Positions 30,734 through 35,197 of a stretch of DNA of 64,000 nucleotides are shown here, one piece after another. Under the pieces are notes generated by a model. The model was not told where the DNA came from. It saw only the letters and a list, made by a program, of their open reading frames with translations, and searched no databases. The stretch comes from Tenacibaculum dicentrarchi. Lineage in GTDB: Bacteria > Bacteroidota > Bacteroidia > Flavobacteriales > Flavobacteriaceae. The DNA is taken from assembly GCF_964036635.1 (NCBI RefSeq), contig NZ_OZ038524.1:1536001-1600000 (forward strand). Direction: 5' to 3'. The stretch's first letter is position 1, and each line of letters opens with the position of its first letter. Both the position numbers and the translations under genes were made by a program.

Positions 30734-31795
30734 ATGGATACAATCCAAAACAGAATCGATGCTTTTATTAAATTAGGAGTCTTTTTAGAACAGTTTTCTC
30801 ATGAGGATATTCAAAAGAAAGAAAACATTCCCCATAACGACTTATTTTTTGATGGTTTTAAACATCAATTAAAAATAGCCGAAGAAAATAATAAATGGTT
30901 TACCCGTCAAAATTTATTATTTGCCATAAAAAGTTGGGCAGAAGCTTTATCCGAAGAAAATATTCAGCAATGGATTGCTAACGAAAATTTAGGTAAAAAT
31001 ACGCCTAAAAATGTAGCGATTATTATGGCGGGAAATATTCCGTTGGTTGGTTTTCATGATTTTTTATCAGTATTAATTTCGGGGCATTCGGTTTTGGTAA
31101 AACAATCGTCAAACGATAAACATTTAATGCCTTTTTTAGCAAAATATTTAGAATATGTTGCACCTCAACTAAAAGGAAAAATTACTTTTACCCAAGAAAA
31201 ACTAACTGATTTTGATGCCGTTATTGCTACAGGAAGCAATAATACAGCCCGTTATTTTGAATATTATTTTAAAAATAAGCCGAGTATCATTAGAAAAAGT
31301 AGAAATTCTGTAGCCGTTTTAACAGGAAACGAAACTGCTGAAGATTTTGAAAATTTAAGCAATGATATTTTTCATTATTTTGGATTAGGTTGTCGTTCGG
31401 TTTCAAAATTATTTGTCCCTAAAAACTATGATTTCGAATCCTTTTTTAAAGGAATGTACAACAAACAAGATATTATTAACAACGCCAAATACGCCAATAA
31501 TTACGATTATAATAAAACGGTGTATTTAATGAGCGAGTTTGATATTTTAGAAAACGGCTTTTTAATGATTAAAGAAGACCCAAGCTACACCTCGCCTATT
31601 GCTACTATTTTTTATGAATATTACGATACTATTACCGAGCTGAAAACAAAACTTGAAATCGAAAAAGAAAAAATACAGTGTATTGTTGCCCGTAATTTTA
31701 TGGAAAATGAAATTGCTTTTGGACAAACTCAGCATCCTACATTATCCGATTATGCCGATGGCGTAAATACCTTAGCTTTTTTATCAAAAATTTAA
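30734..31795 (+). CDS. Acyl-CoA reductase (LuxC-like)
   Basis: Member of the LuxC/acyl-CoA reductase family, which reduces acyl thioesters to aldehydes using NADPH. The family core VAIIMAGNIPLVGFHDFLSV lies at about residues 95-114 and GLGCRSVSKLFVP near 217-229 holds the likely catalytic Cys. The protein has 353 residues, is soluble and lacks the LuxE-type partner. The gene is divergent from ferredoxin and precedes serC by 56 bases. In Flavobacteriia this gene is commonly next to serC; its physiological substrate is not known to me. Confidence 0.88.
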   Translation: MDTIQNRIDAFIKLGVFLEQFSHEDIQKKENIPHNDLFFDGFKHQLKIAEENNKWFTRQNLLFAIKSWAEALSEENIQQWIANENLGKNTPKNVAIIMAGNIPLVGFHDFLSVLISGHSVLVKQSSNDKHLMPFLAKYLEYVAPQLKGKITFTQEKLTDFDAVIATGSNNTARYFEYYFKNKPSIIRKSRNSVAVLTGNETAEDFENLSNDIFHYFGLGCRSVSKLFVPKNYDFESFFKGMYNKQDIINNAKYANNYDYNKTVYLMSEFDILENGFLMIKEDPSYTSPIATIFYEYYDTITELKTKLEIEKEKIQCIVARNFMENEIAFGQTQHPTLSDYADGVNTLAFLSKI

Positions 31796-31851: not shown

Positions 31852-32928
31852 ATGAAAAAACATAACTTTAGCGCAGGTCCTTGTATTTTACCTGAAGAAG
31901 TTTTACAAAAAGCATCCGAAGCAATTATTAATTTTAATAATGATGACTTATCGTTAGTTGAAATTTCTCACAGAAGTACCTCTTTTGTAAATGTGATTGA
32001 AAATGCGCGTAGTTTAGCCTTAGAATTACTAGGTTTAGAAAACAAAGGTTATACGGCATTGTTTTTACAAGGTGGTGCAAGCAATCAGTTTTTAATGACC
32101 GCGTATAATTTATTAAACAAAAAAGCGGCGTACTTAAATACTGGAACTTGGAGTTCAAAAGCCATAAAAGAAGCAAAATTATTCGGCGAAATTGTTACCG
32201 TTGCTTCATCCGAAGATAAAAACTTTAATTACATTCCTAAAAATTATAGCATTCCTACCGATGCCGATTATTTTCATTGCACGAGCAATAATACTATTTA
32301 TGGAACGCAAATGAAAAGTTTCCCAGAAACGGAAGTTCCTTTAATATGTGATATGAGTTCCGATATTTTTTCGCGTGAATTAGATTTTTCAAAATTTGAT
32401 TTAATTTATGCAGGCGCACAAAAAAACATGGGTCCGGCGGGAACAACGCTTGTTATCGTAAAAAACGATATTTTAGGAAAAGTGGAACGTATTATTCCTT
32501 CAATGTTAAATTATCAAACGTTTATCGATAAAGATAGCATGTTTAATACACCGCCTGTTTTTGCGGTTTACACCTCAATGCTAACCCTAGAATGGTTAAA
32601 AAAATTAGGTGGAATTCCGTTTATTGAAAAAGTAAACGAACAAAAATCGGCACTTTTATATGCTGAAATCGATAGAAACCAATTATTTACAGGAAGTGCT
32701 ATAAAAGAAGATCGTAGCCATATGAATGCGACCTTTACTATTACATCGGGTATCGCATCCGAAGCTTTAAAAAATAAATTTGATACACTTTGGAGACAAG
32801 CAAATATTAATGGTTTAGATGGTCATAGAAGTATTGGCGGATATCGTGCTAGTATGTACAATGCCTTGCCTTTATACAGTGTTCAGGCTTTGGTCGATGT
32901 GATGCAAGAACTCGAAAGAACAAGTTAA
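31852..32928 (+). CDS. serC: Phosphoserine aminotransferase
   Basis: PLP enzyme converting 3-phosphohydroxypyruvate to O-phosphoserine. Active-site segments look intact: NFSAGPCILP at the start, FLQGGASNQF, TSNNTIYGTQ, the Asp in DMSSDIFSR and the PLP Lys in YAGAQKNMGPAG. The ATG before KKHNFSAGP was chosen; an upstream in-frame start adds 12 residues unlike the family. It opens the serC - serA-like - DUF1015 group. The intact SerC contrasts with the degenerate SerA-like protein that follows. Confidence 0.95.
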   Translation: MKKHNFSAGPCILPEEVLQKASEAIINFNNDDLSLVEISHRSTSFVNVIENARSLALELLGLENKGYTALFLQGGASNQFLMTAYNLLNKKAAYLNTGTWSSKAIKEAKLFGEIVTVASSEDKNFNYIPKNYSIPTDADYFHCTSNNTIYGTQMKSFPETEVPLICDMSSDIFSRELDFSKFDLIYAGAQKNMGPAGTTLVIVKNDILGKVERIIPSMLNYQTFIDKDSMFNTPPVFAVYTSMLTLEWLKKLGGIPFIEKVNEQKSALLYAEIDRNQLFTGSAIKEDRSHMNATFTITSGIASEALKNKFDTLWRQANINGLDGHRSIGGYRASMYNALPLYSVQALVDVMQELERTS

Positions 32929-32988: not shown

Positions 32989-33945
32989 ATGAAAATATTA
33001 GTAAACGACGGAATCTTAGACGGTGGAACAGCTACCCTAGAAAATGCAGGATTTGAAGTAATAACAACCAAAGTTGCGCAAGAACAGCTAGACAACTTTA
33101 TCAATGAAGAGCAAATTAATGTTGTTGTTATCAAAAACAGCACAGAAATTCATGCCGAACTGATCGATAATTGCCCTACCTTAAAACTAATTGCAAACGC
33201 AAGCACAACCAACGATAATATTGATGTTATTTACGCCCAAGAATGTGGTGTGCAAATTATTAATGTTTCAGATGCAAGTGCCAATGCTGTTGCCGAATTG
33301 GTTTTTGCTCATTTATTAACAATGGCTCGTTTTTTACACCAAGCCAATAGAGAAATGCCTTTAGAAGGTGATACGAGTTTTAATGCTTTAAAGAAACAAT
33401 TTTCAGCAGGAACTGAAGTTCGTGGAAAAACTCTAGGGATTATAGGAATGAGTATCGAAGGACAACAGGTAGCAAAACTTGCCTTAGGTTTAGGGATGAA
33501 AGTTATTGCCTACGATGTTGAATTTGGTGATTCAATTACAATTCCTGTTGAATTTTACAACGGACAAGCTATTGATATTGAAATCGATTTTACCTCAGCT
33601 GATGACTTACTAAAAGAAGCTGATTTTATTACGGTACATTTAGCATCCGAAGAAAATCATATTATTGGTGTTAAAGAGTTTGAAAAAATGAAAAAAGGTG
33701 TTGGTTTTATCAACGTTTCCCAAAGTGGTTTGGTAGATGAAATTGCCCTTGTAAATGCCATTGAAAGCGGAAAAGTACAGTATGCTGGTTTAGATACTTT
33801 TGAAAATCAGCCTACACCAGAAATTCAATTATTAATGAATCCTGAGCTATCTTTAAGCCCTAATATTGCTTCTTTTACCGTAGAATCACAACATAAAATA
33901 GGAACGGAATTGGCAAATAAAATTATTAATTCATTACACGTATAA
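32989..33945 (+). CDS. SerA-like D-2-hydroxyacid dehydrogenase homologue, active site lost
   Basis: By length (318) and full-length similarity this is the short 3-phosphoglycerate dehydrogenase usually encoded after serC. Its key residues differ. The usual Arg of the N-x-x-R-G motif is Gln245 (NVSQSG). The Glu of the E-P motif is Gln274 (FENQP). The His of TPHIG is Asn292 (SPNIAS). The nucleotide motif G-x-G-x-x-G reads GMSIEG (153-158). The substrate loop normally like GRGGVGMDNID reads ANASTTNDNID. The frame is intact and codon use normal, so it is not a plain pseudogene. It may be regulatory, structural or repurposed; dehydrogenase activity is doubtful. Confidence 0.85.
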   Translation: MKILVNDGILDGGTATLENAGFEVITTKVAQEQLDNFINEEQINVVVIKNSTEIHAELIDNCPTLKLIANASTTNDNIDVIYAQECGVQIINVSDASANAVAELVFAHLLTMARFLHQANREMPLEGDTSFNALKKQFSAGTEVRGKTLGIIGMSIEGQQVAKLALGLGMKVIAYDVEFGDSITIPVEFYNGQAIDIEIDFTSADDLLKEADFITVHLASEENHIIGVKEFEKMKKGVGFINVSQSGLVDEIALVNAIESGKVQYAGLDTFENQPTPEIQLLMNPELSLSPNIASFTVESQHKIGTELANKIINSLHV

Positions 33946-33958
33946 ATTTAAATTATTA

Positions 33959-35197
33959 ATGGCAATTGTAAAACCGTTTAAAGCTGTTAGAGCTACTAGA
34001 GACAAGGTGGGGTTAGTTTCATCAAAATCGTATGAAATTTATAGCCCAGAAATGTTAAATGCTAAATTAGCGTTTAATCCTTATACATTTTTACATGTTT
34101 TAAACCCTGGTTATAAATATCATAAACAAGATATTATAGGCGAACAACGCTTTAAATTGGTACACAATCGGTATTTAGAATTTAAAGATGATGGTATTTT
34201 TACCAAAGATAAGGTTGCGGGGTTTTATATTTATCAAAAAACAACCGCAACGGCATCTTTTTGTGGTATTATTGCAGCAACTTCTGTGGATGATTATCAT
34301 AATAATGTCATTAAAAAACACGAAGGAACGCTTCAGGAAAGAGAGTTATTATTTGAAAATTATTTAAAAAATACGGGTTTTAATACCGAACCTGTATTGC
34401 TTACTTATCCTGATAATAGTGTCATTACCGCTATTATTAAAAAATATAAAGCAACTAGACCTGAATATGAATTTTCAACCACCGATAAAGAGCATCATTT
34501 GTTATGGCTGGTTAATAATAAAGAGGATATTACACAAATAACCACTGCTTTTCAAGCAATCGATACCTTGTATATTGCCGATGGGCATCATCGGTCTACC
34601 TCTGCTTGTTTATTGGCTAAAAACTTAGCAAAAGAAAACCCGAATCATACAGGAAATGAAAAATACAACTTTTTTATGAGTTATTTGTTGCCTGAAAGTC
34701 AATTGAGTATTTATGAATTTAATCGATTTATTACCGATTTAAACGGCCTAACTCCTGAAGAATTTTTAATTGAATTAGATACTTTTTTTAGAATAGAAAA
34801 CAGGGGACAAGAATTATACAAACCCAAAGAAAAGCATCAATTTAGCATGTATTTAAATGGCGAATTTTATGCCTTAAACTTACGCTTGTCAAGATATAAA
34901 TTTACAGATGCTTTAAGTAAATTAGATGCGCAAGTTTTATATACTACTGTTTTAAAACCTATTTTAGGCATCGATGATATTCGAAATGCCTCTAAAATTT
35001 TATATTCTCAAGATAAATCGGACGGTTTAGAATTAAAAACAAAAGTTGATAGCGGTAAATTTAAAGTTTCCTTCGGAATGCTACCAACCTCTATTAATGA
35101 GCTTAAGCAAATTGTAGATGCCGATATGTTAATGCCTCCAAAAACAACCTATATAGAGCCTAAGTTAAGAAGTGCTTTAACTATTTACGAGTTTTAG
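33959..35197 (+). CDS. DUF1015 family protein, serine-operon linked
   Basis: Soluble protein of 412 residues, starting MAIVKPFKAVRAT, as DUF1015 proteins do. A conserved YIADGHHRSTSA segment (about residues 202-213) recalls the G-x-H-R nucleotide site of the ParB/Srx superfamily, to which the serine kinases SbnI and SerK belong. It lies 13 bases after the SerA-like gene. No classical serB is in the window. Handling of serine or phosphoserine is a reasonable hypothesis, not an established function. Confidence 0.85.
   Translation: MAIVKPFKAVRATRDKVGLVSSKSYEIYSPEMLNAKLAFNPYTFLHVLNPGYKYHKQDIIGEQRFKLVHNRYLEFKDDGIFTKDKVAGFYIYQKTTATASFCGIIAATSVDDYHNNVIKKHEGTLQERELLFENYLKNTGFNTEPVLLTYPDNSVITAIIKKYKATRPEYEFSTTDKEHHLLWLVNNKEDITQITTAFQAIDTLYIADGHHRSTSACLLAKNLAKENPNHTGNEKYNFFMSYLLPESQLSIYEFNRFITDLNGLTPEEFLIELDTFFRIENRGQELYKPKEKHQFSMYLNGEFYALNLRLSRYKFTDALSKLDAQVLYTTVLKPILGIDDIRNASKILYSQDKSDGLELKTKVDSGKFKVSFGMLPTSINELKQIVDADMLMPPKTTYIEPKLRSALTIYEF

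Follow-up and report, generated by a model that had tools for sequence, protein, structure and literature searches.

Enzymes of the D-2-hydroxyacid dehydrogenase family, to which 3-phosphoglycerate dehydrogenase (PGDH, SerA) belongs, require an Arg and a His for catalysis, and formate dehydrogenases naturally carry Gln at the Glu site. Both pseudoenzymes in general and non-metabolic proteins with this fold have been described before. CtBP and plant ANGUSTIFOLIA are non-metabolic or pseudoenzyme members of the family, and CtBP keeps Arg/Glu/His and NAD binding. In the open-access literature (most subscription papers fell outside the search), searches for a PGDH pseudoenzyme or for serine genes of the bacteria considered here gave nothing relevant, and searches on DUF1015, SerB-SerA fusions and SerK turned up nothing on the protein described below.

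The serC-linked SerA homologue and its active site

The window analyzed here is a stretch of 64,000 nucleotides (positions 1536001-1600000) of the single-contig, 2808268-base genome of Tenacibaculum dicentrarchi; all features placed in it below lie on its forward strand. An open reading frame at 32989-33945 (ATG start, 318 aa, frame open) encodes a SerA homologue, hereafter the window protein. The gene follows serC (phosphoserine transaminase, 31852-32928; NCBIfam PRK05355, 452 bits against a cut-off of 253) at a distance of 60 bp and is itself followed, after 13 bp, by a gene for a DUF1015 protein (33959-35197; Pfam DUF1015, 7.4e-91). A LuxC-like short acyl-CoA reductase is encoded directly upstream of serC (30734-31795), and a look-alike occupies the same place in a far relative, G428 (L339:6026-7087).

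The initial annotation, made from the sequence alone, had described an open gene adjacent to serC that aligns over its full length with the PGDH family, and this description was borne out. The window protein has the D-2-hydroxyacid dehydrogenase fold and both Pfam domains of the family, 2-Hacid_dh (5e-19) and 2-Hacid_dh_C (7.9e-37), and among solved structures the closest in sequence is the PGDH 1wwk, matched over residues 1-315 of the query at E 2.1e-44. An AlphaFold2 model built on 98 rows reached a mean pLDDT of 83.2 and a pTM of 0.75, with residues 119-126 below pLDDT 50. Foldseek searches with this model returned 1wwk as the top match, with PGDH structures leading the matches, and CtBP chains were found among the PDB matches of the protein. 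Against TIGR01327 the window protein scored 210.6, below the cut-off of 454, as did P0026, an intact short SerA (302.6).

Alignment with intact homologues confirmed that the catalytic and ligand-binding sites have been replaced. At positions 245, 274 and 292, where Arg, Glu and His are, as we take them to be, the catalytic residues of PGDH, the window protein carries Gln245 (CAA, 33721-33723), Gln274 (CAG, 33808-33810) and Asn292 (AAT, 33862-33864). The nucleotide loop GxGxxG is replaced by GMSIEG (residues 153-158, 33445-33462). Substrate loop 1 reads VVIKNSTEI (residues 46-54, 33124-33150), against mostly VRSxT in intact homologues, and substrate loop 2 reads ANASTTND (residues 69-76, 33193-33216), against mostly GRGGVGMD; residues 93-99 are VSDASAN (33265-33285), against mostly TPxASSx. 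Relative to intact homologues, the replaced residues are R245, E274, H292, G155, R49, G69, V73, G74, T93, P94, I157 and G294. Among 359 rows chosen for R/E/H, G155 is a glycine in all, and R49, G69, V73, G74 and P94 are each kept in 347-354; the near-invariance of these columns places the changes far from chance. The earlier statement that the changes fall exactly on functional sites proved nearly, not strictly, true: 12 of the 14 lost columns lie in ligand or catalytic motifs, but V48I and R303K, for which we recall no catalytic role, are also changed in the window's clade.

The window protein thus lacks both marks of a working SerA, the catalytic Arg/Glu/His and the GxGxxG loop, while keeping the fold, as a pseudoenzyme does. 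From its sequence, the gene product is predicted to be a folded, probably dimeric PGDH body without 3-phosphoglycerate oxidation or the usual NAD binding. That it is still an active PGDH working through other residues is hardly credible: the fold is intact and the protein still has D176 as well as G158, the third glycine, but the whole catalytic triplet, with the Arg and His that the family needs, has been lost together with the NAD glycine and the substrate-binding R49.

A protein search for relatives (best 120 of 8000 scored candidates) placed this state in a phylogenetic context. Among the matches listed, identity falls off abruptly: 21 clusters are 77-98% identical to the window protein, followed by P0023 at 68% and then by matches at 62% or below. 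The named clusters among these 21 are all Tenacibaculum (finnmarkense, pacificus, aestuariivivum, piscium, haliotis, insulae, soleae and ovolyticum). The window's clade was defined as the 26 rows more than 70% identical to the window protein, its own row included; P0022 (a fragment) and P0035 (poorly aligned over its final third) were removed before residues were counted. All 26 rows have Q at position 274 and N at position 292; at position 245, 21 rows carry Q and the remaining 5 carry E. Named entries of this clade are labelled 3-phosphoglycerate dehydrogenase or NAD(P)-dependent oxidoreductase, a pitfall for annotation.

The SerA rows themselves make the Q/Q/N triplet a clade marker, but the support from neighboring genes is weak: in a SerC+DUF1015 tree that excluded SerA, all nine clade genomes read fall on one side of a branch, yet that branch has an SH-aLRT of only 50, and with SerC by itself the clade is unresolved. 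Moreover, the triplet arose separately in L193. In the SerC tree, L193 (Q/Q/N) and L147 (N/Q/N), both apart from the window's clade, pair at an SH-aLRT of 99. Flavobacterial-type SerA sequences (53-54% identity) also occur on records titled Candidatus Nitrotoga, Sphingobacterium and Bifidobacterium (L078, L100 and L124), which are probably mis-binned metagenome contigs.

Recurrent residue loss and the SerB-SerA fusion

To place the window gene within its genus, which apparently takes in Tenacibaculum and Polaribacter, 146 genomes were sampled and all were searched. Short serA was found at E<=1e-60 in 142 of them. The other four assemblies are only 59-75% complete, and no loss of the gene was seen in good assemblies among the 146. 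Residues were read in 130 of the 142 gene-bearing genomes (12 unread): R/E/H is intact in 75, and at least one of the three is lost in 55. Of these 55 genomes, 45 lack two or more of R/E/H/G155 and 10 lack just one; the single-loss genomes, some of them with R-to-K or E-to-Q changes, might keep activity. The replacement triplets are varied (K/E/N, H/Q/H, K/Q/N, Q/E/H, K/E/K and others), and position 245 alone takes Q, E, K, H, N, Y, I, T, G or S across lineages. The genomic context is stable, with serC adjoining short serA in 129 of 130 loci and the remaining locus cut by a contig end.

These losses recur, which rules out the accident of a single lineage. The trees, quick searches on one or two genes, require 18 changes of the SerA residue state when built on SerC, 4 of them forced by well supported branches, and 10 when built on SerC+DUF1015 (82 genomes), 8 of them forced by supported branches. 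Counts alone allow regain, but loss is the natural direction since 158 of the 162 short SerA proteins read outside the genus are intact. None of the 456 aligned rows carries the Arg without G155, so the NAD loop seems to have been lost after the Arg.

A partnership with a second SerA elsewhere had been one of the suggestions of the initial annotation, and a genome search did find such a gene. Two further relatives of the window protein are encoded in the genome, a 312-aa 2-hydroxyacid dehydrogenase and a 629-aa SerB-SerA fusion (C1:1934057-1935943) that joins a SerB-like HAD phosphatase, a 2-hydroxyacid dehydrogenase and an ACT domain. The fusion scores 639.3 bits against NCBIfam PRK11790 (cut-off 404), passing the curated PGDH threshold, and is ~31% identical to the window protein. 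Its Arg, Glu, His and GxGxxG are intact in all 30 genus copies read, from 139 genomes with a match. A genome without PGDH can thus be ruled out. With SerC encoded in the window and SerA and SerB in the fusion, the serine route from 3-phosphoglycerate looks complete without the window protein.

Outside the genus, 297 family genomes were sampled, of which 59 carry both a long and a short SerA; the long form is fused in 58 and is an unfused 411-aa SerA in G174. All 59 short copies were read, and four have lost residues (G060 HQN, G174 HEH, G100 NEH and G164 GEN). Without a long SerA, none of 103 short copies read had lost R, E or H; these were drawn from ~228 genomes with short and without long SerA, as the 27 best, 40 middle and 36 poorest matches. 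Inside the genus, residues are lost in 53 of 121 genomes with a complete fusion versus 2 of 9 without, the two being G327 (a 53% complete assembly) and G428, and the link between fusion and loss is weak on the genus data alone.

Losses also occur in the opposite direction. In G355, G398 and G410 the fusion has no PGDH core (~330-530) and the short SerA has R/E/H intact. These fusion genes match only ~4-329 and 531-629 in one open frame of 430-455 aa, leaving the SerB part and the ACT end (L335:998-2290 in G355, L414 in G410, L415 in G398). Conversely, G064 (L411) and G280 (L412) carry the fusion but gave no short SerA match at E<=1e-60, and G064 gave no DUF1015 match at E<=1e-20 either. Such reciprocal losses fit two redundant PGDHs, either of which may go.

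G428 (1.6 Mb, 96% complete) keeps a dead short SerA (NEN) with serC and DUF1015 (L339, L233), and the sole trace of the fusion found is a 53-residue remnant. If the assembly is right, the retained role is independent of making serine. With its serC-serA-DUF1015 order preserved, G428 may also be auxotrophic for serine.

This genome bears on the idea that the window protein is a regulatory or stabilizing subunit of the fusion PGDH, in a hetero-oligomer of dead and live chains. In most genus genomes the short SerA and the fusion are retained together (142 and 139 of 146), and live/dead subunit pairs are known in other enzymes. However, the two proteins share little sequence overall, and by eye none in residues 102-150, and G428 keeps the dead protein with no more of the fusion than its remnant. 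We consider this arrangement improbable.

Selection on the retained protein

The retained gene shows the signature of purifying selection. A GY codon model of eight genomes of the window's clade gives omega values of 0.052 (dead serA), 0.047 (serC), 0.037 (DUF1015) and 0.035 (fusion). In the HQ clade, in which residues are also lost, serA has an omega of 0.047 versus 0.027-0.032 for serC, DUF1015 and the fusion, and in two live sets the serA omega is 0.046 and 0.031. All sets comprise 8 or 9 hand-picked genomes; two Q/Q/N genomes were left out, L034 as a near copy and L193 as another lineage. Pairwise dN/dS in the window's clade has a median of 0.110 for serA versus 0.080-0.097 for the three neighbors, and reaches 0.201 for serA in the live set REHa. 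All dead copies read through without an internal stop, both the 55 of the genus (313-318 aa) and the four from outside it (309-323 aa).

Some relaxation is nevertheless visible: across 82 genomes, the ratio of SerA to SerC distance is 2.58 in dead pairs versus 1.54 in live pairs, so dead SerA evolves faster relative to SerC than live SerA does. The dead gene is under purifying selection with some relief, not in decay. A decaying pseudogene is ruled out by the low omega, the 55 open copies and an acceleration that is only mild. Selection for a non-dehydrogenase role, as first suggested, is supported by the omega and by a state common to relatives, the pattern being conserved and decay not seen; a scaffold for SerC and a partner of the second SerA or of DUF1015 are candidates for that role.

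The columns that the dead protein keeps suggest where the constraint lies. Live-conserved columns were defined as those identical in at least 97% of the 359 intact rows (n=102). In the window's clade 75 of these are kept in at least 90% of rows and 14 are lost in at least 90%; the initial counts, 103 and 15, were each lowered by one because column 178 is an alignment artefact from one live row, a column that also enters the segment counts, pocket rates and column-variation means given below. Across 95 dead rows, the best-preserved segment is residues 102-150 (33292-33438), which we take to be part of the dimer contact in structures of this family. Dead rows keep 19 of 24 live-conserved columns there versus 30 of 79 elsewhere (Fisher p 4.5e-4). 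The boundaries were chosen post hoc, and two further segments were tried; limits of 100-151 give 19 of 25 versus 30 of 78 (p 0.0013). N120, R121, M123, P124, L125 and G127 are kept in all 95 rows. Folding alone may account for the conservation of this segment.

The pocket behaves differently in the two dead clades. In the window's clade, dN/dS is 0.276 in the pocket, 0.112 in residues 102-150 and 0.107 in the rest, and of 200 random column sets only 2 reached the pocket dN. No such acceleration is seen in the HQ clade (pocket 0.060 vs 0.089 for the rest). The live sets give 0.166 versus 0.200 (REHa) and 0.091 versus 0.078 (REHb), and each includes a row or group with other pocket letters, so that the contrast is not clean. 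Pocket rates were therefore discarded as proof of a relaxed pocket. They do make a metabolite sensor in the old pocket, one of the roles first suggested, less likely in the window's clade; the HQ clade lacks this signal.

The same data bear on neofunctionalization, in which a rebuilt pocket would bind a different metabolite or catalyze a different reaction. I48, K49, A69, Q274, N292 and A294 are invariant in the 26 clade rows, the recurrence of Q/Q/N in L193 and an HQ-clade pocket no faster than the rest are as this explanation would have it, and the Gln at the Glu site has its natural counterpart in formate dehydrogenases. Against these points, the replaced columns vary like unconstrained ones (mean 2.44 vs 2.52 residues), they are the fast columns of the window's clade, the NAD loop is gone, and lineages differ at position 245. 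On this evidence neofunctionalization is rather unlikely.

The DUF1015 neighbor, proposed role and known systems

The DUF1015 gene is present in 89 of the 146 genus genomes, always within 1 kb of short serA. In 129 rows, 54 copies with lost residues have DUF1015 and 1 does not, while among intact copies 29 have it and 45 do not (Fisher p 8.6e-14). Scored as DUF1015 within 1.5 kb in 130 loci, the figures are 54 of 55 for losses, and 30 with and 45 without for intact copies. On the SerC tree, with losses irreversible, 20 of 21 events fall on DUF1015 lineages, which make up 56% of branch length (binomial p 9.7e-5), a count that rests on a weakly supported single-gene tree.

Striking as these counts are, DUF1015 was not accepted as the explanation of the losses and stays a lead, because independent pairs on supported branches number only 4, too few for a test, and because the rates of SerA and DUF1015 do not covary after accounting for SerC (partial r -0.07, 82 genomes). 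Each of the four genomes outside the genus with a dead copy does encode DUF1015, though at a place beyond the 1.5 kb read around serA. Family-wide, DUF1015 occurs in 203 of 299 genomes and lies within 1.5 kb of SerA in 3 of 92 loci read.

This association also enters the case for a redundant gene in slow decay, whose frame would stay open solely through its operon place because of polar effects on DUF1015. Such decay would suit the redundant PGDH, the recurrent loss, the mild rate increase in dead lineages, the short distance to DUF1015 and its presence beside nearly all dead copies of the genus. Yet the selection measured acts on amino acids, of which polarity needs none; the gene is absent only from the four genus assemblies no more than 75% complete; DUF1015 is missing from the sequence read beside the four non-genus dead copies; and no dead copy, inside the genus or out, has an internal stop. 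We judge this explanation unlikely.

The DUF1015 protein has an ADGHHR motif, invariant in all 23 aligned sequences, that presumably resembles a ParB-fold motif. Its match to GmrSD_N is weak (E 0.064, 13.8 bits against a cut-off of 33.2), PDB sequence and profile searches with the protein gave nothing of use, and its structure model is too poor to interpret (pLDDT 52.8, pTM 0.43, 23 rows). One paper lists ParB-CTPase-fold proteins fused to "DU1015", taken here as DUF1015, and a ParB-CTPase fold in the serine kinase SerK (PMC12704722). Some archaea have serK in the vicinity of genes for SerA-like proteins and aminotransferases (PMC5120207). The DUF1015 protein may have a ParB-like nucleotide-binding fold. 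A second, divergent SerA (42%) and DUF1015 (37%) pair stands side by side in G387 (G387:C196:64245-66404), and may come from another organism since that assembly is 7% contaminated.

The reading we favor, with moderate confidence, is that the catalysis of the short SerA is redundant and that a non-catalytic role, structural or regulatory, preserves its body, above all residues ~102-150. The ancestral short SerA would already have filled such a further role in the serC-serA operon, possibly exerted through protein contacts involving this segment. Arrival of the SerB-SerA fusion would have made its catalysis dispensable, after which catalytic residues could be lost in several lineages while the protein body stayed. 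The pocket would no longer matter, and the body would be held for protein contacts, with SerC, the adjacent DUF1015 protein and the fusion as candidate partners. If redundancy were all, deletion would be expected, yet the gene is missing only from incomplete genus assemblies.

More tentatively, a wider possibility can be raised: short serC-linked SerA of Flavobacteriaceae may have an unrecognized non-catalytic function that predates the losses, perhaps that of a structural component of a serC-serA-DUF1015 module in which DUF1015 is possibly a ParB-like protein acting as a serine/phosphoserine enzyme, with recurrent inactivation alongside the fusion unmasking that function. If so, the clade would be a natural experiment separating an enzyme from its moonlighting role. 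Recurrent active-site loss with retention of the protein is evidence, by comparison among genomes, that a textbook enzyme moonlights, and closely related species supply paired live and dead orthologues in which to look for the role.

Comparison with known systems places the window protein as follows. The intact short serC-linked SerA of Flavobacteriaceae sits in the same place, is of the same size (~316-318 aa) and is roughly 50-62% identical, but has R245, E274, H292, GxGxxG and nearly always the substrate loops, none of which the window protein has. The SerB-SerA fusion (PRK11790 class, ACT) shares its D-2-hydroxyacid dehydrogenase fold and pathway and differs in being a separate, distant gene product with an intact active site and added HAD phosphatase and ACT domains. 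CtBP and ANGUSTIFOLIA use the family fold in a non-metabolic role, as is proposed for the window protein, but they are eukaryotic factors with no bacterial serine operon. In the Desulfurococcales SerK clusters, a ParB-like gene (SerK, a free serine kinase with a ParB-like fold) lies near SerA-like and aminotransferase genes (PMC5120207); for the DUF1015 protein, such a fold and a kinase role are candidates.
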